64,000 nucleotides of DNA from Albifimbria verrucaria (taxonomy: Eukaryota; Ascomycota; Sordariomycetes; Hypocreales; Stachybotryaceae): NCBI GenBank assembly GCA_020081605.1, contig JAHREC010000009.1, positions 4,836,001 to 4,900,000 of the forward strand, read 5' to 3'. Under the pieces are notes generated by a model. It was not told where the DNA came from and did not search any database. It saw only the letters and a list, made by a program, of their open reading frames with translations. Each line of letters opens with the position of its first letter. Within the stretch, counting starts at the first letter, position 1. A program made the position numbers and the translations under genes. Positions 3,565 to 63,833 of the stretch are shown here, piece after piece.

Positions 3565-3670
3565 GTCTTCGTGGCTCAGTTGGTTAGAGCGTTGGTCTCA
3601 TATCGTTTCGATGTGATGAATTTCAAATTCAGCCATCCAAAGGTCGTGAGTTCGAGTCTCACCGAGGACA
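3565..3670 (+). tRNA. tRNA-Met(CAU), elongator type, with 32-nt intron
   Basis: The acceptor GTCTTCG pairs with CGAGGAC and the discriminator is A. The D stem is GCTC/GAGC, the T stem GTGAG/CTCAC with TTCGAGT loop. The anticodon stem is TTGGT/TCCAA with one T-T mismatch. The loop CTCATA gives anticodon CAU. A 32-nt insertion after position 37 is the intron. The A/T-rich intron and the stem agree with fungal elongator tRNA-Met. CAU can in principle also be Ile after modification, but that is a bacterial/organellar case. Confidence 0.9.
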
Positions 3671-4423
3671 CCAATCTTTTGCTGATTCTTTTTGTTCTGT
3701 TCAGAGTCTGGCAACTGAAGTGCTCCACAGTCATCTGAGCAGAGATGGTCGGTGATTTGTGTTCTACGACATGTGAATCCCAGATCTATGCATAGCTCAG
3801 ACTCATCTTAGATCAAGTCTATGAGCAGACCTCTTTTATGGGAACATGATATAATTGCCAACATGTTGTGATCAAAAATCGAATAGTGGAGAGTTGAAGG
3901 CCACCAGTACCTCTCCTACCATGCTGTTTACTCCTTCCTTGTATAAGAACCTTCCGCCTCAATAAAGTTCATCAGCACATGTTTTGGGTATCAAATATTT
4001 TGATGGACAATATCCACTGTAAGGCAGAGCATGACATGGCTGAACTCGGTGAATCTTCACCATCTTCTGCCTTACCGAACATGCAAGATAGTAAGTAGTC
4101 AGTGAGTATTGTAGTATAGGGTTGGTACGGAATCGGAAATCCACAAATTCTTGGTGTTTTCACACAACTAACAACAGCGTGGCTGAAGCAACTCGAGCTG
4201 TCCAGAGGAAAAAAAAAAAAAAAGAGAATGCCGATTGCCTAAAACTCATCAACAGATTTCATGACTCTCCGAGATAGATAACGGCGCTTACTCTTTTACA
4301 CATCGAGAGTAAACAACGAAGTGTGGGTTGGCCCCCTCGCCCCGGCTTAAAAATCAAAATGATATCCAGGAGACATAATAAAAAAGTATACCTGGTGACA
4401 AAAAGATGAGTTTGAAAGGCATG
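3671..4423. other. gene-poor stretch between tRNA-Met and tRNA-Glu
   Basis: No supported gene. It contains a poly-A tract at about 4209-4223. Short frames around 3959-4163 are not convincing. Confidence 0.4.
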
Positions 4424-4507
4424 CTCCGATACTGGGAATCGAACCCAGGGCTGCTCGGGCACTCAGAAGATGAGAGCGAGCGATGTTAGCCACTACACCA
4501 TATCGGA
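4424..4507 (-). tRNA. tRNA-Glu(CUC), with intron
   Basis: On the minus strand the acceptor TCCGATA pairs perfectly with TATCGGA (4431..4425), discriminator G. The D stem is GTGT/ACAT, the anticodon stem GCTCG/CGAGC and the T stem CTGGG/CCCAG with loop TTCGATT. The loop CT-CTC-A gives anticodon CUC. A 12-nt intron follows position 37. Confidence 0.92.
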
Positions 4508-5159: not shown

Positions 5160-6691
5160 TCAGAGTCCCTCAATCAGCTTGGGGAGCAGCACGTTGTTGT
5201 ACTCCCATAGAACAGTTGTGAAGCCGGCGGAGAAGGCAGCACCAGTGTACCAGGTAGAGCGGTGTCCCTGGAGGGCGAGCTGCTTCTGGATGAAACCAGA
5301 GCGAAGATCATCAGCAGTGACATGCGCGTGCATCTTGCCGTGGTTGGCAAAGGAGGAGAAGCTGAGAGTGCCGTTGGATGCAGGAACGGTGCCTGCTTCG
5401 ATCAAGGTGTCAATGGTCTCAGCAATGAGGCCCTTCATGCTCTCCGAGGTGTCCTTCTCAGTGCCAACGGCAGTGAACTGGAACAGATCTTCGGTACCAC
5501 CAATGTAGTCCATGCGTCCGAGCTGCGAAGCAGTGGGGAAAACAGTGTAGTTGGTGGATCCAGGCGCAGGCGATCGGTTAGAATAGGCAGTGCTGACCTG
5601 CAGGGAGGGGTGTCGGAGGATGCCGGCGTAGACAGTGGCATACTTGAACTTCTCGAAGACGGCCTCCTCAGTCTCGTCGAGGTGGAAGGGCTCCAAGTTC
5701 TCCAGAGTGGGCTCAAAGGCAATGAGCAGGCGCTTGGCCTTGACGCAGGTCAGCTTCGACTCAGGACCGCGCACCTTGACCAAGACGTCTTGGTCTTCCT
5801 CACGGAGGGCCGAGACAACTGTGCTCGAGTAGAGGACATCATCGCCCAGGAAGTTGGCAATGCTCTCGAACAAATCGAACAGGCGGCCGGATGCAGGGAC
5901 CGCGGCGGCACCAACGCCCAGCAAAGCGCGGACCATAGGAATGCCGGATGCTTGCACTACCCACAAGGTCGGCACGTTCATGGTGTCGCCGAGACCTTGG
6001 GCGGTCGAATCCCAAATCTGGGGACGGCAGCAGCAATGTCATACTTCTCGACGAATTCACCAAAGGGCATCAGAAGGTCCTCTGGGATGGATTCTGGGTC
6101 AGGGAAGTTGAAGAATCCAGGCAACACCATGTCCTCATATGGCTCAATGGCATCAAGATACCTCTGCAGAGCAGGGTACATATCGTTAGGGCCGGGCGCA
6201 GTCCATCCTGCGACAGGCTGACCGGTCTTGAAATCGACATACTTGTAGTCGAGCGTGGTGAACTGCATCGAGCCACTGGTCGACACATTCATGCGCGCCG
6301 GGAAGTCGAAGGTATCCTTATACTCCATCCAGGCCTGAACGCCGACGTTGATGTCCTTGCCTGTCTTGGGGTCATGGTAGAAGTTTGTGTGACCACCCTG
6401 CAGGAGTCAGCGAGAGTCACGATAAAAGTAAGATAGAATTCTGACGCGAGACGCGGGGTCCCAGGGCGATCAGATTGGGGTACTCACGAGCTGATCGGCC
6501 TTCTCAACAAGAAGTACGCTCTTACCGTGGTCGCGTAACCACACGGCAGCGTGAGCACCGGAAGCACCACCACCGACGACAACAACATCCCGAGAGATAG
6601 TCGAGCTGCAGCAGTTGATGCCAGCAGCAGCAGCCACATTAGCAAGGGCGACTGCTAGGCTTACGCCTGTGCGCATGGTGCTGAAATGCAT
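5160..6691 (-). CDS. secreted FAD-dependent amine-oxidase-like oxidoreductase (beta-cyclopiazonate dehydrogenase family)
   Basis: Exon 1 is 6691..6488, the 90-bp intron 6398..6487 (GTGAGT...TGCAG), and exon 2 6397..5160; about 480 aa. An N-terminal hydrophobic Ala-rich stretch (about residues 8-24) looks like a signal peptide. It is followed by the Rossmann dinucleotide-binding motif DVVVVGGGASG and an acidic end to beta-2 (VEKAD), typical of NAD_binding_8/amino-oxidase flavoproteins. The family uses FAD to oxidise C-N or C-C bonds of small molecules; the substrate here is unknown. One base appears missing in the G run at 6020-6023 (CCCC on the coding strand). Restoring it joins ...AAAVP to QIWDST...GLGDTMN, a conserved stretch in the family. 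I read this as a sequence error rather than a pseudogene. No biosynthetic cluster partners were seen nearby. Confidence 0.82.
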
Positions 6692-13940: not shown

Positions 13941-16600
13941 CTAAGTCGGCGAAGTGTGAGCCTCTTTCATCTGAGCTAGCCGCTGTTCTGAGTTTTCAGT
14001 GTCTGGGTGGGTTGGGCCCAGTACTTCCCTCCTTCGCAGAACGCATTCTTCCATAAGCCTGGCCGCCTCTTCCAATCGACTTAGACTAAACCACAAGTCG
14101 GCAATTCCATGCTTGATGTGCAGCGTCTCTGGATGCATCTCACCGAAAAGTCGAAGACTCTGTTCTAACACACTTGTGTATATTTCCTCAGCCGCATTGA
14201 ATTCACCCATGTAGTAGTATACAGTTGCCAGTTCGGTTGCGCTGGCTATTGTCTCTGGATGCATTTCTCCGAACATCTGGCGACGGTATTCTAATACTTG
14301 GATGCTCATTTCTTTAGCTTTAGTATAGTCGCCCATGTGATGATAAGTAGATGCAAGATTTGCTTCACTGGCTATTGTTTTTGGATGCACCTCTCCGAGA
14401 AGTTGGCGACGCTGTTCTAATACTCTGATTCTCATTTCCTTAGCTTTAGTATAGTCGCCCATGTGATGATAAGTAGATGCAAGATTTGCTTCGCTGGCTA
14501 TTGTGTCTGGATGCACCTCTCCGAGAAGTTGGCGACGCTGCTTTAATACTCTTATTCTCATTTCCTGGCTTTAATATAGTCACCCATGTCGTGGTAAGCA
14601 TATGCAAGATTTGCTTCGCTGGCTATTGTGTCCGGATGCAATTCACCGAGGATTTGGCGGTACTGTTCCGTTACTCGAACTTGTGTTTCCTTGGCTTTAG
14701 TGTAGTGGCCTTGGTCACTGTAGATGAGTGCGACCATTTCAGTACTGCTGATTGTTTCCAGGTGCATTTCTCCCAATGTTTCGTGGCGAACCCGATGTAC
14801 TTCGGTTATGAGTCTTTCAGCTTCACTGTAATGACCAAAAAATCTCTGCAGGCCTGCGAGGTGGTACATGGTGTTGAGGACCACTGCGTGTTCCCTCCAA
14901 GCGCTTGTTCACCTCTTTGTAAAACTTCAAGGAGGAGCTCCTTGGCTTCATGATGGCGGCCCGATTGTCGGTAAGTGACTGCGAGATTAGCCGACACCTG
15001 AAGGACGTCTGGGTCATCATCTCCAAGCTTCTCTCGCAGCAGCGTTAAGGCTGCACCTTCCAGAATTTCTGCCTGTCTGAACATCCCCGGTCGCCTGCGT
15101 ATAACCCTGCCCGTTTAAGGAGATGGCCGCCCACAGTTCCGTCTCCATGCCTATCCGCAAAGCCGGCCATTTGGATGCAGTGTGCTAAGTATCTTTCGCA
15201 TTGCCCCCATAGACTGACTTCGCCCTCTTGATAATCAGGAAACAGGTTGTCAATTACTTTTAGGGCAGCGTGGGCGTATCCGTTTTCTTCATTACAGCTC
15301 TGACCATCTTTCAGCGCTGTGTCCATTGAAATGCTTTCTTCTGTTTGGCCTGCGTGGCCTAGCTGGTAGCGTATCCCTTCTTGTACGAGTTTGTGCATCT
15401 CATAGCTCAACTCGCCCTCAGCCTCCGTACGTCTGGCGAGGAAGGAGAAATCTCGGAGTCGCTTGATTGCTCTTCCAATGGCTACTTCGTCATGCTGCTG
15501 CTCGTGATTGGCTGTGGCTTGCCTGGCCAGCACCAATCCTGCTTCTTGTAATACTTCTTGCTGGATCTTTTGGTTGTCCAGGTACGCTATTATATGCAGA
15601 ATTTCGTATGCTAGTTTGTTGTGTTGTTTAAGGTACTGAACCGAGATGCTCCAAGTTGCGAGAACACTATTTGTGACGCCCTCTCTTCGATGTGGATCAT
15701 TGTACGACTCCTTCAATACTTCCCATCTTTTCCGTCCCTGTCGAAGTAATTCGAGGTATTCAGTGATTCGTGTTAAAGTTTCTCGCATATATGCGCCGGC
15801 TTGAGAAACAGCAAGAGGAAGCCATTGCAGCTCCTCTAGCAATGCCTCGATAGCTTGTTCGTCATTGGAGCCAACTGGTTCATCGCCTCTCGCTAGTGAC
15901 AAGAGTTCTTTTGCCTCCCTTCTGTCATCCGAGCAACCTTGATGCCTCTTCGAGTACCGACAAGAGTGCCAAGAATCTGGTCGTCTCGAGTAGTCCATAG
16001 CACCGTTCCTCCTGGACCGGCAGGAATATACGATCGCATGGTCTTGGAGCTAGCCATGCCACCAATGCCAAAAAGATCAAGATTATCGGCATTATCGACA
16101 ATTAGCACCCATGAAGACTGCTTCTGAATGCCAGTGCTAACAGCCTGTAGCATGTCCACCTCAGCAAGACCGCCAATATTCAACCCCAAGATGTCGGCAA
16201 TGCATTTAAAATCATGGGAAAAAGTTGCCTCATTCTCGGCATGAACCCAGAATACGGAAGTTTTTGGGTCCTGACATCGATCGTATGCGTACTGGAGTGC
16301 TATTTGTGTCTTTCTATGGTTCATTCAGCAGTTGAGCACTTCTAGACAACATCTGACCTACCCTGACCCTCCGAGTCCGCATAGTGCCGCACTTTGAGCC
16401 CCATGCTGTTGTGATAGACGACTCTCCAAAAGAGCTGTGATATCCGGACGTAAGATGATGTCTTCGTTACGCGGATAAGGAATGTATGATCGGATTGTAG
16501 GTTTGTCGGATCCATAATTGACATTCACGGACCCATCATTAACAGTGAAGGAGCTGAAATTATGACCGGAAACCGGCCCATTAAACGTCGCTTGGCTCAT
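13941..16600 (-). CDS. NLR (STAND) receptor: N-terminal short motif, NB-ARC, TPR repeats
   Basis: Exon 1 is 16600..16362, the 48-bp intron 16314..16361, and exon 2 16313..13941. It gives about 871 aa once four single-base losses are allowed for (15917-15919, 15085-15088, 14893-14895, 14564-14565; all C runs on the plus strand). There is no large effector domain. Residues 1-33 are a Gly/Asn/Ser-rich segment (TFNGPVSGHNFSS...NVNYG). The P-loop GLGGSGKT is at 75-82 and the Walker-B-like VLIVDNADN at 149-157. Arm and winged-helix regions follow (PLAVSQAGAYMRE, YEMHKLVQEGIRYQL). The C-terminus has about eight kinesin-light-chain-type TPRs of 42 residues (GE-x-HP-x-TI...ANLAxxYHxMGDYxKA). NB-ARC proteins switch by ATP-dependent oligomerisation, and fungal ones sense non-self. 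It is divergent from the PNP gene, 312 bp away. See the pair finding. Confidence 0.85.
14290..14667. repeat. 126-bp tandem repeats encoding TPR units
   Basis: Three consecutive 126-bp units begin near 14290, 14416 and 14542. The first two differ at roughly eight positions (about 93% identical by eye). The third is clearly more divergent and lost a base at 14564-14565. They encode successive 42-residue TPRs of the NLR. High DNA identity between adjacent units indicates recent duplication or gene conversion. Confidence 0.8.
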
Positions 16601-16912
16601 TTTACCATCATGAATATTTGTTCACTTCTAGAAGGCAGCTCATCTTGGATCTCTGATGCTTTCAACGCTGCCAATGCGATGTGGGAGACGTGTGAGAAGA
16701 TATGAATGGATGAAAGAGGGAATGGGGCTGAGTAGAACCTGGTTGATACCCAAATCAACATTTCACAGCCTCGCACGTGAATTCCTCGCTGCTTATTCGA
16801 TGATCTTCCGATTCGTTTTATGACCTGGACGGGACTAATTTGGATACATGAAAACAAAACTATTCTCATCCCTTCTTCAACTATGCTCCGACACCTAGGC
16901 CAATAATTCACG
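16601..16912. promoter_or_regulatory. shared divergent promoter of the NLR and PNP-domain genes
   Basis: Only 312 bp separate the two ATGs, which point away from each other, so both promoters must lie here. No clear TATA box was seen. A minus-strand open frame of 113 codons across it has no coding features and is discounted. Confidence 0.55.
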
Positions 16913-18155
16913 ATGGCCCCACCCCAAGCAACAATCAAGTTGGCATTGCAATAGTTTGCGCACTAGAAAATGAGTACAACGCAATTGCGCTCATTGTAGA
17001 TCATCTATGGCCTGCAAGCAGCGAAGACAATCACGAACAGACGCGGGGTGATCCGAACGTGTATACCAAAGCAAAAATATTCGATCATAACGTGGTGCTT
17101 GTCCGATTGCCTGAAATGGGCAAAGTCAGTGCCGCCAGCACGGCTGCGAGCCTTAGATTGAGCTTCCCTCGTTGATGTTGCTTCTGTTGGTGGGGATATG
17201 TGGTGGCAACCCCAGTCCTGAATCCAACATTGAGATATTACTGGGTGATGTGATCATCAGCAAGTCAGTCATACAATATGACTTGGGCAAACGCTTCCCT
17301 GATCAGTTCCAGGCAAAAGAGACTACAGAGAGCAGCCTCGGTCGACCACCGAAGACTGTGCGGAGTCTTGTGGCCATGTTGGAGACAGCCCGAGTGCGAT
17401 TCCAACTTCAGCAAACTGCCGCAAACATTTTAGAGGAGAAGATACAGCGCCAAGCCAGTCCTACAGAGCCTGTTCGAGCAGATTACTCTTACCCTGGAAC
17501 TGTACAGGATACGCTATTTCCAGCAGATTATCGCCACAAACACCAGTCCCCGAATCAATGTAATACCTGTGCCTCATGTACTCAAGCAGCAGATCCGGTA
17601 TGCGCAGAGTCCCGGGTGCGCTCTTGCGAGGAACTTGGTTGTTCAAGCGAGAATCTCGAATGGAGAGAACGTCTGGAGGAAAAGGCAGTATTGGAGAGGC
17701 AGGGCAATCTAGTTCAAGCGCAGAAGCCCAAGATCTTTTTCGGCTGCGTTGCGTCTGCCGACACGGTGCTTAAGTCAGGCGAAGAGCGCGACGCACTAGC
17801 TAAGAAGCTCTCTCAAAGCAGCAGTGCTCCAATCCTTGCTTTCGAAATGGAAGGGGCTGGAGTGTGGGATGAGTTACCAAGTATTATTGTCAAAGGTGTC
17901 TGCGACTATGCTGATAGTCATAAAAACAAGAAGTGGCAGGACTTTGCGGCAGCAACAGCAGCGGCTGTGGCAAGGGCAATTATCGAACGCGTTCCCACAG
18001 CTCAGCTGGGGGCCGCCGATCCCGACAACATAGCCGACAAGCCGCAAACTGCCACGGTGGTTAATGGGTTTGTGTTCAATGGGCCTGTTCAGGGAAAGTA
18101 CTTTTCATCAGGGACGACTATTCACGGAGGAACAAACACCTTCAACTACTCATAA
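16913..18155 (+). CDS. PNP/UDP-phosphorylase-domain protein with C-terminal motif shared with the NLR
   Basis: ATG at 16913, about 414 aa, no intron. Two single-base losses interrupt it, in the C runs at 16922-16925 and 17166-17168. Restoring them gives MAPPPSNNQVGIAIVCALE...GKVSAAS and then LVGICGG and EILLGDVIIS, the signature of the nucleoside phosphorylase family as found in fungal NLR-associated proteins. Later anchors are LGRPPK, YPGTVQDTLF, GCVASADTV, FEMEGAGVWDELP and KGVCDYADSHKNKKWQ, the nucleoside-binding and C-terminal elements. The last ~30 residues (NGFVFNGPVQGKYFSSG...NTFNYS) form a separate low-complexity tail resembling the NLR N-terminus. The PNP domain in such proteins may act on nucleosides/nucleotides. 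The role proposed here (effector triggered by the NLR) is inference from the shared tail and the divergent arrangement. Confidence 0.85.
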
Positions 18156-37408: not shown

Positions 37409-39865
37409 ATATATTATAAGATTGCAATACTGCTTTCTTGAGAGAAATATATTTTCGATTCGTTTAAAACAATTGAGAATGTGTAACCTTTTCCAAGCCC
37501 ATTATTCTACTGTCCATTGATTTCTCATTTGTCTCTTTTATTTAATACTTAAGGTCTCGGAAGGACTGCCATGCGCTTAGTATAATGCGGAGTTGGACTA
37601 CCGTGGCAATCTTGTCGTTTGATGGCACGCCACTGGTGATAACTAGTTGCACTATACCTGCTGGCGTGTGCGGTGAACCACAGCTCTGTTAGGTTCTCTA
37701 TCGCAGGCAAGCCCCTGATTCCATCACACTAAGAGGTTCAACGATGGCATGCTTTTATCAAAGGCGAGGAAGCTTATTTAGCTTACATTCCTCTATGGTA
37801 AGATGTAATGATGATTGTTACATGGCACCCACGGCTATTGATGAAGACAAGCAGATATGTAGTAGGTTCCACGGGGTTTCCTTCTCTGTTCTACAAAAGC
37901 TCGAGCATATGTCAGATTAAGATTTAAAATCTTATATCATACGTGTTTTGGGGATGGGTATGGCCTGATATGTTGCTCGATATGAGTACAGCTTGCACCC
38001 TACGGAGCCTTCCACTTGTTACTACCTACCTGCCAACCAGGATAACCAACCCTTATATTGACATTCAGCAAAGGAGGAAATACTTCCAAGGTTAGCATGA
38101 AGAAGAGCATCAGGCAAGGAATTCGTGCAGGTTGGGTGGCAATATTCTAGAAAGAGGGAGAATGAGCAACGTTGGAGGCTAGGACATTTTTTATGCCTAG
38201 CTGAAGTTGAAGTGATCAGTGATGCTTTAGTGATTGATATACAACCGAGATAATTACAGTCCCATAGCGGATGGCCAATCACTACCTCCTTGTGAAAGCG
38301 AATGGGACTTTGTAGGTCGAAGTGAAAAGAGGGAGACACATAGCGTATTTCGAGGTATCTTATAGCACGACGAAATACTTGTAATAAAAAGATAATAGAT
38401 GTTGTCTGCCTTGCTAAATGAAAATACTCATGATATTTATGTGAGTCAGAGGCATCAACTGGCTAGATGTCCATCTGATAATGCGAATGCTTTCCTTTGT
38501 AGTCGAGCCAAATGAAATTACAATGGGGTGAGCTCGACTAGCCTTTATTGTGCGTTTTGTGAACTATGACCTTGTCGGACAATTTTGAGTTGGAAACTGT
38601 AGTACAGTATGCTTTCTCTGTTTTCTGGGTCAAGAGTTAAGTAAAGAATGATACGATTTGGACGAAGATGATTCAACTGTAATGCACCTGCCATAAGCAA
38701 CACCGCGTGGTGATATTAGCTCAAGAAATTTGCATGCTTATTGTATCACTGGAGACTTGTCATTTTTGAAGGCATAAATTTCTAAACATGAAGTGCCCTT
38801 GATGGTTCCATGCTGGTCATTGATACATTGGAAATTCCTGATATCGACAGAAACACCACCATGAACTGGATGCATTTATTATGTACACGCAGTCTGCATA
38901 ATATGACACCAATGAGGGCAGTGTTACGGCAGGATGCTCGCATAGGTGGTTGCTACTCTGTTGACTTGGCCTCCATTCATGTGCATTTCGCACTATGAGT
39001 GGAAAGTTTACTGAAGACATTCCAGATCATACATTTCACGACTGATGCCATATTTCAAATCCACTCGTACTGGGAATAGCTTATGCTTTAAGCATTTTTC
39101 AAGAGGATAACTTGGCATCAATGCCAAAGCAAATGATGGCGTTTATGCCGAGACGGATGATCGAAGTCAGCTGATTTTAAGAGGAGTTGTATACCAACAA
39201 CAACAGGCCACCCTTTCAACTTAACCGAAGCTAGATGTATGCCCGGCCCACAAGGAGAAAGAAGTGACGTGCTAACCATGCCATAGCTAAGCTCCAGAGG
39301 GTTAAGGATTTCTCCGAAGGCAGCAAGGAGTAGCGAGTGCCGAGCCATTATACCGAGGGCCCCCTCCTCTGTGGGCCTTTCCCCACTACCCTACGGGGGC
39401 GGACGTTATTGTCCTTGATCGTCGGATAGGACGGAGGTTGACCAATCTTAAGTATTTAATCTCGAGCAACTTTTGCTTCATTCTTTTGAAGGATGTTTCC
39501 TGTGTACTCCAAAAGACAGACCGAAATTTGGACGTTCTTCTTTACAACTAACACGTTAGTTGACCAACCGATACGCCCGCAATGTTGACGTACGCAGGAT
39601 GCAAATTTCCTCAAACTTGTCGATGTAGATGTTATCCCAGGGTATCCCTGCTGTAAGAAGCTTGGCCAGACTTCAAGAACAAGGTTTCGGTACAGCTACT
39701 AACCTTGCAAGCAAGAAATCGTCTATGGTCCACCATGAGTGGAGCAACCTCAATTGACCGTTTTACAGCACCAAGTCAGTGGAGTCGCATGCGCCTCAAA
39801 AGCCCCTTTAGATGCTTGCTAATTATTTCTTGTACATGTTCTTACACGCGGCTAAGCTATCCTTA
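37409..39865. other. 2.5-kb A/T-rich intergenic region
   Basis: It lies between the 3' ends of the convergent methyltransferase and aldehyde dehydrogenase genes. There is no coding signal. A G/C-rich patch at 39355-39410 stands out but has no recognised feature. Confidence 0.45.
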
Positions 39866-41469
39866 TCAAACACCCGAGTGCTTAACCCAGTAAGCCTGGG
39901 CGTTACACCAGCCCTTGAGACCGACCTCTCCCCAGTCCATACCAAGACCGCTTTGTTTATGACCACCAAAAGGTACGTTAGGGGCAACCTCGAAGTGGGT
40001 GTTGACCCAAATGCTGCCTGCTTCAAGCTGTTCTGCAATACGCTTAGCCTTTTCGACATCCTTTGACCAGACTGAAGCGCCAAGACCCATTTCTGATGCA
40101 TTAGCACGTTTGATAACATCGTCTTCGTCACCATTCCACTTGAGGACAGGCACAATGGGACCGAAGGGCTCCTCAACAACAATGCGTGAGTCCTCCGGGG
40201 ATTGTCGATGATTGTGGGTGGAAGGAAATAACCCTTGCCGCTCTTCTCTTCGGGTTCACCACCCAAAGCAACCTTCCAACCTTCCTTGCCAATTTGCGAG
40301 TATAATTCCTGGAGTTTCTCGTACTGCATCTTGTTTTGGATAGGGCCGAAGAAAGCCTCGCCGTCAGTGTAGTCACCAACCTTAAACTGCTTAATGAATG
40401 CCACCATGGCAGCCATGAAATCATCGTAGATCTTCTCATGAACGTAAATTCGCTTCACGTTCATGCAAATCTGACCAGTATGTACGAATGCCAAGAAAGC
40501 CACCTGTTAACCCAGTGATTAGTACATTTCTTGGTTTTGGAGAATTGTCATTAAGTACCTTTGAGACGACCTTCTCAATGTCAACATCGTCACAGACGAT
40601 GGCGGCATCGTTACCACCGAGCTCTAGAGTAACACGCTTGACTGTGCTTGCGCATGCTGCCATAACCTTCTTTCCGGTTCCGACTGAGCCAGTAAAGCTA
40701 ACCTTGTTCACACCAGGATGAGTAGTAAGCATAGGCCCAAGGCTTTCCTCTCCGCTGAGAGCCTGGAAGACTCCAGGAGGGAAGACCTTGGCGCCAAGCT
40801 CAGCAAGCTTCAAAGCCGAGTAGGGCGAGTAAGGTGAAGGCTTCCAGATGAAGGTGTTACCAGCCAACAGCGCAGGAAACAGCTTGCCGGAACCAAGCAG
40901 CATGGGGAAGTTCCAGGGAACAATTCCGACACCCACACCAAGAGGGACGTATCGTACAATGGCAGTTCGCTAAACTGGGTCAGCTTTCTGGTCTGTTTGG
41001 CTGTTCAAGCATACGTACGTCCTCATTGTCTTCTGGCTTCTCCTCCTTTAGTCGTAGCTTAGGTGTTTCACGGGCAATTCCCATGGTCAGGAACAGTTCA
41101 AACCCGCCGGCCTGCGGAGGCTTTCCTGCTTCCTTTCCAAGGAGATCAATGAACTCTTGCTGATTGGCTTCAATAGCATCGGCAAATTTGTTCAAGTACT
41201 CGGCACGTTCATCTTGAGACAGCTTGCGCCAGGCTGGCCAAGCAGCCCTCGCAGCAGCTACAGCCTTGTCAACGTCCTCTTGGGTGGAAACGGGGCATCC
41301 CATAAAGGCTCTTCAGTGCTGGGGTTAATGGCCTGACGTGTCTTTGGCGTCGAGACCAGCTCGTTGTTGATAACATTTTGGAAGGTCTAACGGACACTTT
41401 AGTAAGTACATGCTCGTGAAGAGTAGGCATGATGAGGCTGACCTCGAAAGGAATCTTGTAGTCCGTCAT
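39866..41469 (-). CDS. NAD(P)-dependent aldehyde dehydrogenase
   Basis: Four exons: 41469..41443, 41386..41019, 40969..40559 and 40503..39866 (introns of 49-56 bp), 481 aa after restoring two G-run losses (41292-41295, 40197-40200; C runs on the coding strand). Cofactor and catalytic anchors: VPWNFPMLLGSGKLFPALLA, FTGSVGTGKK (nucleotide-binding turn), LELGG with general-base Glu248, and GQICMN with nucleophile Cys282. The 34-residue Glu-Cys spacing is canonical. C-terminal anchors: EEPFGPIVPVLKW, AGSIWVNTH and PFGGHKQSG. It oxidises aldehydes to acids. No targeting peptide is evident, so probably cytosolic. Substrate class is not resolvable. Exon 1 encodes only nine residues (MTDYKIPFE), so the start rests on a clean GTCAGC donor and the phase. 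Confidence 0.93.
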
Positions 41470-58474: not shown

Positions 58475-61400
58475 ATGGCGCCGACGCGCGACGCCAGCAC
58501 CTCATCACCATGGCAAGCACCTTCTTCCTCTCGCCGAGTGGACATAGTCGGTGACTTTGCGGGAAAGGAGCTCTTCGGCATACACGGCGAAGCCCTCATT
58601 GCCCACTGCCTTCCCAAGGCAAACGTTGATTACGATGGTTAAATCTACATCTATACCCTCCCTTTACTGAATCGGTTTACTAATGTTTGCTTTGCAGAAG
58701 GCTTCCAGCTTCTCCACGCGATCCACGTCATCGAGCGGCTTCTGAACGACCTACACCAGCGAGGATGCAACTTTCACATTCTTTGGTTGGACGATTCCAA
58801 AGATCTTGCCGTTCCCTACGGATCAGGTTCGCAGTCATTCAAGTACCATCTGACCCGGCTCGTCTTGATTCAACATCTGCAATCGCGCCCTAGTCCCCAG
58901 CAGCCAAAATCCGGACCCTCGCACCGAACAAACGCATCAGCTTCGTCTTCCCTTCCGTTTCGAGCCAACAATTTCGAGACTATACGGCAGAAAATTCTCT
59001 GCATTTCATTATGTGTGGCGCCGGCTGGACAAGGCCTGGTAGTCATGGGAAGAATCGTGCTGCCTTTAGAAACAGTCTCGTGTACTCTGGCTTCTCGGTT
59101 GCATTCATAGACAATATTGAGATACGAAGCTCAAAGGTCCATCAGTGCCATTCAGATTATATGGGTGAAGGCTAATGTGGTGTCAGGTTTATATCGACAT
59201 TCTCACAGCGCCGCCACTTTCTGCCGACCCCTTGAGATGGTATCAAGCACAGCGTGCGAGGAAACTTCCCAGTCAGCGTGGCTACATATCACGACACAGC
59301 TAAAATCACACCCTTCAAGCACTGAGGCCAGGTTGACTACTCGGGACAGGATAGGTCTTATCGCCTGCGCGACCATTCTATCTGAAGATCCAGAGGATAG
59401 CCAGTATCACGTTTATGCTTTCCTTTTCACCTTCACCTGTTGAAGCGTGCTAAATTAGCCCAGAGATCTTATCCCAAGCCATGTGACAAGAGCAACGATG
59501 TTTGCAACCGTTTTCTGGAAAAGTTCTCTGCTATCGCAAGCAGCTTGATCAAATACTGGACCGAGCATGAGAGTGCAGATTGGACTGGTACAGACCTATT
59601 CGACCTCGTCGATGGTCGCCTGTATCGACACGCTTTCAGTAACCCTAAACTAACGAATTTGATTGTCGAGGACGGTCTTTACCTGGGTGTAATGCGGAAG
59701 CTTGTTGGCGACGATGCGTCAAAACATTTTTCTCCTTGCTTTTCTGACGGCCCAGCAACCCTGGCCCCAAACCTCCAGGAAGATAGGTCGAATCTGACCA
59801 AGCCCGCATGCACAGTTCTTCCTTTCAGCCACAAAATCATTGACAAATATCTGGCAGACGTGCAATTGAAAACAGATTCTGACAAAGAACCCGATTCAGG
59901 CTCTCGGATCTTCCAAGAGTTGACTCACTGGCATAATGCCAAACGTTCCATCGACCTGAAACAACCCAAAAAGCCTCTTGGCTTCTTGGCAAGGAAACGA
60001 AATCAGAAATTCATGGCTGACACCATTGCCTATTCGGCAAGTTTGACCAACTCGACTGGAAAAAATATTGAGCCTGAAACCATCGTGGTTCAAAAATCAC
60101 TGCCGCTGACTTATAATCGCCAATCTCAGCCACAGAAGCAGAAGAAGCCGCCTGTGACCAAGTCGTCAGGAAAACAGGCTGCCCTAGAGGCAGCCAGAGC
60201 GGTCCAATTGAGGAAGTCAGAAGGCAAAGCACTAAACGTGGTCAACCACTGGCATGAGACTTGTCAAGAGCTTCAGATGGAGCCTCTGAAGGTGAAACAG
60301 TACTTGAAAATGGTCAAGTATTTGTCCAGTCTTTCTCAACCTGACAAAGAAACAGTTGGTGCCGAAATCTTCTTGTACGGCGCACAAATTCTCAGCAGCC
60401 ATCTCAACGCGGCCAAAACAATGTTCAATATAGGCAAACTGAGCGTTCTTGCCTTAGCTTGGTCGAACCTTCACGAGATCGCCAACTGGCCGATGAATAA
60501 AAGCACACGGAAGTACGCCGAGCAGCTAGCCAAGTCCTTCAAGTTGGCCCTCGATCTTCCACAGCCAACCGCACCACTTCGACAGCTACCTTTCGAAGTC
60601 TCGATTCGAAAAGCCGCAATTAGTTTACCACAAAATCAGATTGAATACCAACTTGAGTATTGCGGGCCTTACTTGGATCGCAGTTTCGATCCGACCCCAG
60701 ATCCTCGTGTGCAATTCATGCCGGATGCTTGGCAGCGCAAGGTTCTTGATGCCATTGACGCAAACAGCAGCCTATTCGTGATCGCCCCAACGTCGGCTGG
60801 CAAGACATTCATATCATTCTACGCCATGAAAAAGGTCCTGCAGAATAATGACGACGACGTTCTTGTTTACGTCGCCCCAACCAAGGCTCTTGTCAATCAG
60901 ATCGCAGCTGAGATTCAGGCCCGTTTCTCCAAGTCGTATCGTCATGATGGACGTTCTGTCTGGGCAATTCACACAAGAGACTACCGAATCAACAGTCCAG
61001 TCGGATGCCAGATTCTGGTGACTGTTCCACACATTCTCCAGATCATGCTTTTGGCCCCTTCCCACGCACAAAAGCCGAGTTCTTGGGCGCGACGAGTGAA
61101 ACGCATTATTTTTGATGAAGTGCACTGCATTGGCCAGGCCGATGAGGGAGTTATCTGGGAACAGCTGCTTTTGATGGCACCTTGTCCTATCATCGCATTG
61201 TCTGCAACTGTTGGCAATCCTCTGGAGCTTGGAGATTGGCTTGCTAATGCCCAACGAACGAAAGGCTTCAAATTGGTGACTGTTACGCACTCTACACGGT
61301 ACTCTGATCTGCGCAAGTTCATTTACATGCCTCCGCGGTATTTCTACTTCGATGGCCTCAAGCATGTCGAGCGTTTACCTCTTCCTGGCCTAGATGCAGA

Positions 61401-63833
61401 GGGGAATAATGCCAGGTTCTCATTCATTCACCCGGTAATCAGCATTCTGAGCAGGTAGGTTGATATAAATTTCGTTGTTCACCTTTCCATGATCGTTTTA
61501 CACACCTGGTTCCCGCAAAATCTTACCTCACGCATACCATTACTAATAGATTTTAATAGGGATAAGGGAACGTTGGATGATTTGAGTCTGGAGGCTCGCG
61601 ATTGTCTACGCCTGTGGCAAGCCATGAAGCATCACGAAACAGAAGATTTTCCCATGAGCCCAAGTCTCTCGCCAGACTTTGCCTTGCCCCCTACCCCGAA
61701 AAAGTCGGACGTGGTAAACTGGGAAACAGCGTTGAAACATCAACTATACTTGTGGATGGTGGACTCTCGATCTCCATTTACTAATTGCCGCAAGCACCTC
61801 CAAGACCAGACAGCCCTAAGATACAACGTCGGCAATGACAAGAAAGCAAGTTCCTCCGACTTTTGTCTGCTCCTCGATCTCCGGGACCAAGGTGGCCTGC
61901 CTGCCATTCTGTTCAACTATGACAGACAGGAATGCGAGAACGTCTTAGACATAGTACTCAAGCAATTGAAAGATGCTGAACAAGAGTATCGAAACAAGAG
62001 CCCCTTGTGGAAAAGGAAAATTGAAGGGTTTGAGAAATGGAAGAAGAACATGCAGAAGAGCCAGCAAAGGCCAACAAGACCATCGAAGGATCCTGGCATG
62101 ACAAAGGCGGATCTGGCTCGAGAAGCGGCCAGTCGTGAACAAAGCTCATTTGCAAGCTTTAATCCCCACGATGCCCTTGAAGATTTTAGTTTTGCAGATA
62201 TGACCAAAATTTCTCGCTCAGAGCTCGACAGTTTGCTGTATCCGCTCAAAACACTGGTGAAAGGGCGTTTCATTGAAGGTCTTCGTCGTGGTTTGGGTGT
62301 TCATCATGCTGGAATGAATCGGCAATACAGACAAGTGTAAGTTATTGGTCCCTATTTGAGCAAGCCGAGTTCACTAACATCTTCCCTAGTGTGGAGCTTC
62401 TATTCCGACGATCAGTGCTTACCGTCGTCATTGCAACCGGCACACTGGCACTTGGCATCAACATGCCATGCAAAACTGTGGTGTTCTGTGGCGACTCGCC
62501 TTACTTGACTGCGCTCAACTATCGCCAAGCTTCTGGACGTGCTGGTCGTCGTGGCTTTGATCTACTTGGGAACGTTGTATTCCACAAGATTCAGCCTCAG
62601 CGGGCGATGGAGATCATGTCTGCTCGCCTCCCAGATTTGCGAGGAACATTCCCCATGTCTGTCACTTTAGTACTCCGTCTCTTCGGTCTACTCCATGGAA
62701 CTGAAAACTCGGAATATGCCACTCAAGTGGTCCAATCTCTTTTCACCCAGACTCGACTCTACCTGGGTGGTCCGACAGCTCGAATGTCGATCGCTCACCA
62801 TCTGCGGTTCTCTATTGAGTATCTTCGCCGACAAAGTCTGCTATCTGCTACAGGAGTGCCACTGAACTTTGCAGGTTTGGTTGGTCATTTGTATTTCACT
62901 GAAAATTCTGTTTTCGCTTTCCACTCCTTGCTGAAAGAAGGGTATTTACATGAGCTCTGTGATGAGATCGACGATGAGTGTGAGCAGAAAGATATACTTC
63001 TTGAGCTTGTGCTAATTCTTTCTCATCTATTCTGTCGGTTTCCTTGTTTCCAGTATAACAACAAAGAGTGGCTGAACACGGTTGTTCGCTCCTCGCCGTC
63101 CGTTGTCATACTACCTGAACTTCCAACAGAGGCAGCTAGACTTCTTCGTACACACAATGAAGAAACGCTTGACATATTCTTGAACTATGTCCGCACGTAC
63201 GTAGAGCAACATGTACACACGGTTGACGACGAATTGCCTTTCACAAAAAGAAGTGTGGCTCCAGAGCATCCTATAGAGCTTCCTGATATTGGGATCTGCA
63301 GTCTTCCTGCAACGGTCATCCGCTCTCCCTTTGCTGCACTATCGGGGCTTACAGATGAGTTCAGCAGCATTCATGAGCTGGTTGCGACGGTTCGTGCTGG
63401 GGTGTTCCTTGACGAGAGTGCAATTCCCTACATCCCGATTTATCCCGAGGAAACAAACAATGTTCCATTCAATGCTTACCTGCTAGACTTTTTCAAGCAT
63501 GGAGACATCAACGCACTCGTCCGTGACAATGGTATCAAGCGCGGTGACATTTGGTTTCACCTCAAAGACTTCTCCCTAATACTTGCGACCATTGTAACGA
63601 GTCTGGGGCTTTTCCTCGATTCTGATAATGAGCTTGACGATGCAGCAATGGTCGATGTTGAGAGTGTCGGCAACGCTGTGGAATACCCTCTGAGCTCCGA
63701 TGATGAATCCGATGATCAATTGAAGTCTGACTTGAGTTCTGACTTTGGTGAATCAAGTCTGGTCAATCTCTATAAGGCTATGAAACTTGTCCAAACAGAA
63801 TTTGACGAGAAGTTTAAGAAGGTTTGGGCATGA
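58475..63833 (+). CDS. DDX60-like Ski2-type DExH-box RNA helicase
   Basis: Five exons: 58475..58637, 58698..59136, 59187..61454, 61560..62336 and 62390..63833 (introns of 60, 50, 105 and 53 bp). It is 1,697 aa after restoring three losses (58991-58994, 59228-59231, 59436-59437); all phases then agree. The N-terminal ~500 residues carry the DDX60-specific region (HAIHVIERLLNDLHQRGCNFHILWLDD, SGFSVAFIDNIEIRSSKV). Helicase motifs: APTSAGKT at ~735 (motif I), IIFDEVHCIG at ~840 (II, DEVH), ALSATVGNP (III), GVHHAGMN and LGINMPCKTVVF (IV/V), QASGRAGRRG at ~1262 (VI). A winged-helix and acidic C-terminus follow (SSDDESDD). Ski2-like enzymes unwind or feed RNA to decay; vertebrate DDX60 is antiviral. 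The fungal role is unknown. The gene is near complete in the window. Confidence 0.92.

Follow-up and report, generated by a model that had tools for sequence, protein, structure and literature searches.

How does a fungal NOD-like receptor (NLR) reach an enzyme that is encoded beside it as a separate protein? The question is raised by a locus in the genome of Albifimbria verrucaria, lying within a 64-kb stretch (hereafter the window, G000:C6:4836001-4900000) of a 48.4-Mb assembly with 41 contigs. An NLR gene and a gene for a PNP-domain protein are adjacent and divergently transcribed there, just as the initial annotation had described them, and the two proteins share a short motif that is placed at the N-terminus of the receptor and at the C-terminus of the candidate effector. 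With a probability put at roughly 0.6, the NLR and the separate nucleosidase-type effector of PNP/MTAN fold are read here as a receptor-effector pair coupled by amyloid-type stacking of this motif. In the names used below, L stands for a locus and C for a contig of the same genome (G000), and P0001 to P0006 are relatives from other records.

A local alignment of residues 5-30 of the NLR (TFNGPVSGHNFSSFTVNDGSVNVNYG) with the C-terminal 27 residues of the PNP protein (VFNGPVQGKYFSSGTTIHGGTNTFNYS) spans 25 columns with a single gap and holds 14 identities, the number counted earlier by eye. The Smith-Waterman score of the pair is 58, which was reached by none of 20,000 shuffles (top shuffle 54; Gumbel p ~2e-5). 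Against 11,429 six-frame open reading frames (ORFs) from the window and the fetched loci (543,271 residues, with overlapping copies counted), the top distinct matches were NLR first exons and the window PNP C-terminus, at scores of 49 to 84, and the best unrelated ORF scored 37 with the NLR segment and 46 with the PNP segment as the query. A chance match is ruled out by the shuffles and by this background. The same codon is used for three of the 14 shared residues, so that the likeness does not stem from a recent DNA copy; the residues were kept and the silent positions changed. These codon differences, together with the presence of the motif in P0001-P0003, rule out a recent DNA duplication or an assembly artefact.

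Two further copies of the motif were found in the same genome. Searching with the NLR segment returned the segment itself and C6:2565197 (E 1.3e-5), where exon 1 of an NB-ARC paralogue carries the motif MNVASFQGPVSGRNFNPVTISGGVANIHYG; the following exon of this paralogue continues without a stop for 439 codons, as far as the stretch examined reaches. The PNP tail returned itself and C8:886094 (E 6.2e-5), where the motif MNSAVFNGPTSNSNFVLGTTVHGGQVTFNLS stands in exon 1 of an NLR of a different class, NPHP3_N/NACHT with WD40 repeats; the start codon of this gene is putative, an in-frame ATG further upstream being possible, and frame changes follow downstream. The reverse searches recovered the same partners, and all matches were confined to NLR first exons and the PNP C-terminus. 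The six possible pairs among the four copies all gave a shuffle p <=0.0055 (2,000 shuffles per pair). The same codon is used for 4/13 shared residues between the window NLR and its C6 paralogue and for 4/16 between the window PNP and the C8 NLR. The consensus over the four copies reads F-[NQ]-G-P-[VT]-[SQ]-[GN]-x-[NY]-F-x(3,4)-T-[VI]-x-[DG]-G-x(2)-[NT]-[VIF]-[NH]-[YL]. It is conceivable, if somewhat unlikely, that one PNP effector is shared by several receptors from two NLR classes through an undescribed family of amyloid-signalling motifs, the receptors that are not adjacent acting in trans; the receptors gathered around one enzyme in such a hub would, just as tentatively, be two of NB-ARC type (the window one at least with TPR repeats) and one of NACHT-WD40 type.

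The architecture of the receptor was resolved as 39 residues, the sequence IPYPRNED..., a P-loop split by an intron, the NTPase region, DUF7779, and TPR repeats. A Pfam scan found no domain in the first 39 residues, which points to a short N-terminus without an annotated effector domain. The motif had been placed directly before the P-loop, which does not hold, as 44 residues intervene. Removal of the intron restores GLGGSGKTQIA, and the end of exon 1 is echoed by related sequences: P0002, P0003, and P0004 stop at GLGGSG, and the open frames of P0005, P0006, and the NLR paralogue L042 depart from the shared sequence at that point. Because L042 gives DUF7779 at 35.1 bits and NB-ARC at 21.3 bits, under the Pfam cut-off of 23.5, the window NLR is likely, judging by its sequence, to belong to the NB-ARC/TPR class.

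The effector side is best represented by P0001, the only one of 16 candidates to fall within the E-value limit in a search with the PNP tail, an intact protein of 413 aa named "nucleoside phosphorylase", which differs from the window PNP pieces in 26 of 413 columns (two of them the X join) and in none of the last 45. The whole protein matches Pfam PNP_UDP_1 at 43.3 bits. Its AlphaFold2 model (a monomer, like the other model reported here) has a mean pLDDT of 74.4 and a pTM of 0.78; the last helix of the domain spans residues 339-358, residues 366-413 fall below a pLDDT of 50, and the motif tail is in this model outside the enzyme fold, in agreement with the earlier view that the globular domain does not need it. 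By Foldseek, the model groups with futalosine hydrolase and MTA/SAH nucleosidase (best E 1.2e-13; TM 0.73 by target length and 0.43 by query length), and the NCBIfam MTAN model is matched with an E of 4.3e-18, yet at 65.7 of 169 bits, which is below the equivalog cut-off. A sequence search of the PNP protein against the PDB gave no matches. The protein carries ALENE, FEMEG, and CDYAD, which we take to be the active-site glutamates and aspartate of MTAN. By analogy, the PNP-domain enzyme probably cleaves nucleosides.

Relatives of the receptor were sought in other records with a profile of exon 1, which kept five of 18 candidates (P0002-P0006), the others lying above the E-value limit. The motif core FNGPVSGHNFSSFTVNDGSVNVN is unchanged in P0002, which represents the NLR side alone on a contig of 14,226 b, and in P0003, which has one extra N behind it; P0004-P0006 are more distant N-terminal NLR pieces, whose corresponding stretch is looser (VSGNQFGDGTTIHQ in P0004). 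P0001, the intact PNP, and P0003, an NLR first exon, each lie on a contig of 41,605 b with their motifs kept, and this equal length strongly suggests that they are neighbours.

Within the genome itself, the repertoire of PNP_UDP genes is very large, some of them joined to NLRs; the PNP search scored 101 of 151 candidates and gave 130 match rows, with several genes having more than one row. Copies of equal score on the small contigs C20, C21, C23, and C24 may be recent duplicates. The best-scoring PNP paralogue, on C10, runs in a single 382-aa frame from the PNP domain into the start of an NB-ARC domain of the type found in the window NLR (IPLPRNEDIILRP...GLGGSG), and C8:2601 has a PNP followed by this NB-ARC type, on the same strand and in the same order as C10, in a broken frame. 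Such a fusion is lacking in other close PNP paralogues, among them C8:1272742 and C6:2856324, the latter ending in a PP motif. Because two PNP paralogues, including the closest, are fused to an NB-ARC domain of the window receptor's type, PNP seems to be a natural effector of this type of receptor, and the motifs in the window seem to act as tags that replace the covalent link. The proposal of a split PNP effector fits this picture, and the broader receptor-effector logic of the initial annotation was supported by the terminal placement of the motifs, by the adjacent, divergent position of the genes, by the tail lying outside the folded enzyme, by the joining of the same domains in this genome, and by the occurrence of both parts in other records. 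L051 (G000:C21:134300-136500) is a second divergent pair of an NB-ARC NLR and a PNP, both seemingly broken, whose NLR N-terminus is of the VSGNQFGDYATINQGD type.

Since the tags match and stand at those termini by which proteins of this kind are commonly fused, it is probably through them that the receptor activates the enzyme, by analogy most likely through amyloid-like stacking. Sensing by the TPR part would cause the NLR to assemble and its N-terminal motifs to be gathered, and the gathered motifs may nucleate a cross-beta (amyloid-type) stack that would capture and template the similar tail at the C-terminus of the PNP protein. The PNP enzymes would then cluster and become activated; their substrate would be a nucleotide or nucleoside, ATP if the bacterial PNP effectors are a guide, and the outcome would be death or arrest of the cell. 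The bacterial PNP effectors of Detocs, which like the window protein have a PNP/MTAN-type hydrolase fold in an immune setting, cleave ATP according to excerpts of PMC11249213, and reviews, also in excerpt, extend ATP cleavage to fungal PNP_UDP domains (PMC12881547, PMC10197012). The window pair differs from Detocs in its sensor. To our knowledge, no motif coupling is known for Detocs.

The pairing of PNP effectors with NLRs through amyloid motifs has been published (excerpts of PMC9815663), and in principle such coupling is thus already known. The nearest published system is PUASM, an amyloid- and prion-forming motif described in the same excerpts as common to PNP_UDP C-termini and adjacent NLR N-termini. 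PUASM resembles the window pair in having a PNP_UDP effector with a C-terminal motif beside an NLR with an N-terminal motif, as well as in motif length. The two differ in that the pattern FxGxGxQxxGxGxF is absent from all four motif copies, while of the two PUASM peptides in print one has it, in that all eight comparisons of the motif with these two peptides stayed at shuffle level (p 0.13 to 0.91), and in that the window NLR is likely of NB-ARC/TPR class, whereas the PUASM NLRs of PMC9815663 were NACHT or NACHT-WD40. A search of the genome with a PUASM peptide, made without a positive control, found nothing.

A Pfam scan of the four motif peptides matched no family, including PF17106 (sigma), PF17046 (PP), and PF11558 (HET-s), and identity with sigma, PP, or HET-s is rejected on these models. 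PF17106 gave a single match in the genome, C15:6618221 (E 0.008, below the cut-off), and since an E. coli control was matched too, at chance level, the sensitivity of the sigma model is unproven here. At L028 (G000:C15:6612500-6622400), a sigma-like stretch, NLGSGPQNVAAGSGAQYVNNGGGVQFNNG, lies directly upstream of a same-strand PNP gene (~5722-5835, minus strand), and the HET-s model PF11558 reaches 79.6 bits at G000:C33:2659902-2660099, though it does not match the window motif peptides. PP pairs (PF17046, "Ses_B", RHIM-like) follow the same gene logic as the window, and judging by sequence L024 (G000:C6:2851500-2861400) is an ordinary PNP/NLR pair of this type: its PNP (5764, plus strand) ends in the PP motif NYGAQTGINHGTINNTFY, for which PF17046 gives 23.4 bits (cut-off 23.2), and ~2.2 kb on (8012, plus strand) the PP stretch NYGSQVGNNYGAINNEFH, found by pattern and missed by PF17046, precedes an NB-ARC NLR in a frame that differs from that of the NTPase. 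Used as a positive control, the L024 pair scored 65, against 58 for the window pair. Unlike PP, the window motif lacks the NxGxQxGxN core and a PF17046 match.

HET-S/NWD2 (HRAM) and sigma systems likewise have short motifs at the NLR N-terminus and the effector C-terminus, and clustered genes; in contrast to them, the window effector is an enzyme and not a HeLo pore former, and the motif is present in a single copy. The window motif does not fit the HRAM register by eye, the HRAM features being G19, hydrophobic residues at 5, 8, 10, 16, and 18, and a preference for R/K at 15 (excerpts of PMC4518210). Nor does it, by eye, contain the QY or GDQN of the GDQN pattern, NxxxGxQYxxxGxGDQNxVSxxxxQxN (PMC12261475). 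Comparison with printed peptides (PUASM x2, sigma, BASS3, archaeal) gave p <0.05 in two of 20 cases (window NLR with BASS3, 0.003; C6 NLR with sigma, 0.022), without a consistent link, and the genome's own PP and sigma stretches did so in one of 12 (window NLR with the L024 PNP tail, 0.029). Five literal motif strings were found in none of the papers whose text was searched, which says little, as logos in figures escape a text search. A looser relation was seen to NLR N-termini of the VSGNQFGDxTxIxQG type (P0004, L051), with p <0.05 in four of eight comparisons, and a wider family that includes them may be regarded as a lead. The initial suggestion of a distinct motif type is partly supported, in that the motif fits neither the PUASM pattern nor any of the Pfam models for sigma, PP, and HET-s, and is tempered by this looser relation.

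By these sequence comparisons, novelty is partly supported, the motif being new against each profile that was testable, in a comparison set that leaves out PF01048_015, NLR12, and NLR34. According to the excerpts of PMC9815663, PF01048_015 is a PNP_UDP-associated motif found in four NLR/effector pairs, NLR12 is an HRAM-like motif with PNP effectors, and NLR34 is a 28-residue motif of ascomycete NLRs for which those excerpts give no known effector; PF01048_015 is probably the second member of "PUASM 1-2" in PMC12261475. It is quite possible, though we lean the other way, that the window motif is the published PF01048_015 or NLR34, which would touch the label of the motif and is compatible with amyloid-type coupling. 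Unlikely, in turn, is a functional but non-amyloid docking peptide, with the segments pairing homotypically as ordinary beta strands or serving as a small oligomerisation tag that recruits the enzyme. Terminal placement and conservation at the protein level demand an interaction and not an amyloid, and the models show low-confidence strand pairs, which suits such a peptide; against it, the experimentally tested cases of this gene layout are amyloid (PUASM, PMC9815663; HET-S, PMC12881547; both in excerpt), and the G/N/T-rich composition over 25 residues resembles that of PUASM/HET-S by eye. The least probable alternative holds that the segments are left-over linkers of an ancestral PNP-NLR fusion that was later split, with no present role. 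The joining of PNP to the same NB-ARC type elsewhere in the genome would accord with it, as would a PNP-NACHT fusion on C4 whose linker, FGTMVGHTIIAGTVIHSGGTANFNV, bears a faint likeness (shuffle p 0.001 to 0.075 in comparisons with the four motifs, three of four <0.05); that linker, however, scores 45, at the background level of 46, no motif was seen by eye between PNP and NB-ARC in the C10 and C8:2601 fusions, a NACHT-WD40 NLR also bears the motif, and the residues were retained despite codon change.

Coupling by amyloid-type stacking, the reading preferred here, has to be held against several observations that weigh on the other side. The two motifs stand side by side at the window locus only, the nearest PNP rows, among the 101 of 151 candidates scored, being ~86 kb from the C6 NLR and ~61 kb from the C8 NLR; at C21, the PNP looks broken and no motif tail was seen within the 2.2 kb examined. 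That P0001 and P0003 share a contig is drawn solely from the equal length of 41,605 b, and when NLR residues 1-58 were compared with full-length proteins, all 10 candidates lay above the E-value limit, probably since gene calls of this kind are broken up by the intron. Neither the NLR-motif nor the PNP-motif search listed the partner motif of the window itself, so searches of this kind miss true cases. In the AlphaFold2 models, strands are of low confidence in both segments (residues 18-21 and 24-27 of the NLR N-terminus, with a mean pLDDT of 56.3, and the region 380-389 of P0001) and neither support nor refute an amyloid. A sigma-like NLR peptide chosen by several predictors did not aggregate (excerpts of PMC8086366), and likeness to a known motif is therefore no proof of amyloid. 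Lastly, the reading frame is broken in the C8 NLR and in both genes of the window pair. For this pair, gene decay is no likelier a cause than sequence error, because an intact protein closely similar to the PNP exists and an unrelated aldehyde dehydrogenase gene of the window is frame-broken as well; the helicase gene of the window, on the other hand, is readable almost throughout (Table 1). Both motifs sit in stretches free of frame disturbance, and the same motif residues recur in independent records.

The features of the window are collected in Table 1. A search of a plasmid collection gave no match.

Table 1. Coordinates of the divergent pair and of other features, as positions within the window.
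Feature	Position	Strand	Details
NLR exon 1	16362..16600	-	ATG at 16600; N-terminus with motif, then stretch up to the P-loop (GLGGSG|K); gene model
NLR-side motif	16511..16588	-	from local alignment
NLR intron	16314..16361	-	48 bp, GT..AG; gene model
Remaining NLR	13941..16313	-	stop at 13941; four frame changes, near 15.94, 15.1, 14.9, and 14.56 kb
Intergenic space of the divergent pair	16601..16851	.	~0.3 kb
PNP-domain protein, frame piece 1	16852..17172	+	without in-frame ATG where P0001 begins
PNP-domain protein, frame piece 2	17157..18155	+	EMEG and CDYAD stretches, C-terminal tail; Pfam PNP_UDP_1 26.5 bits; single frame change of the gene near 17.16 kb
Effector-side motif	18072..18152	+	extreme C-terminus; identical in P0001
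Aldehyde dehydrogenase	~39823-41200	-	frame change inside conserved domain, as in the NLR and PNP genes; hints at assembly indel errors
DEAD-box/Helicase_C protein	59401-63833	+	~1,480 codons; readable throughout save for an in-frame stop (61.46 kb) and a frame change (62.3 kb), both of which look like introns by eye
tRNA	3565-3670	+	Rfam match, 57 bits; not called by ARAGORN
tRNA-Arg	4423-4507	-	called by ARAGORN, not by Rfam

The receptor-effector motif logic is known, and it is the tag that looks like a new version of it. If the reading holds, a further type would be added to the small set of fungal motifs named in the papers cited here (HRAM, PP, sigma, PUASM 1-2, and the provisional GDQN). 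The motif would be one that is coupled to an enzyme effector, which bears on whether a single principle of fold templating drives both pore formers and nucleotide-cleaving enzymes. As joined PNP-NB-ARC genes and a tag-linked pair occur in one genome, the step from covalent to amyloid coupling would be directly testable within a single organism.

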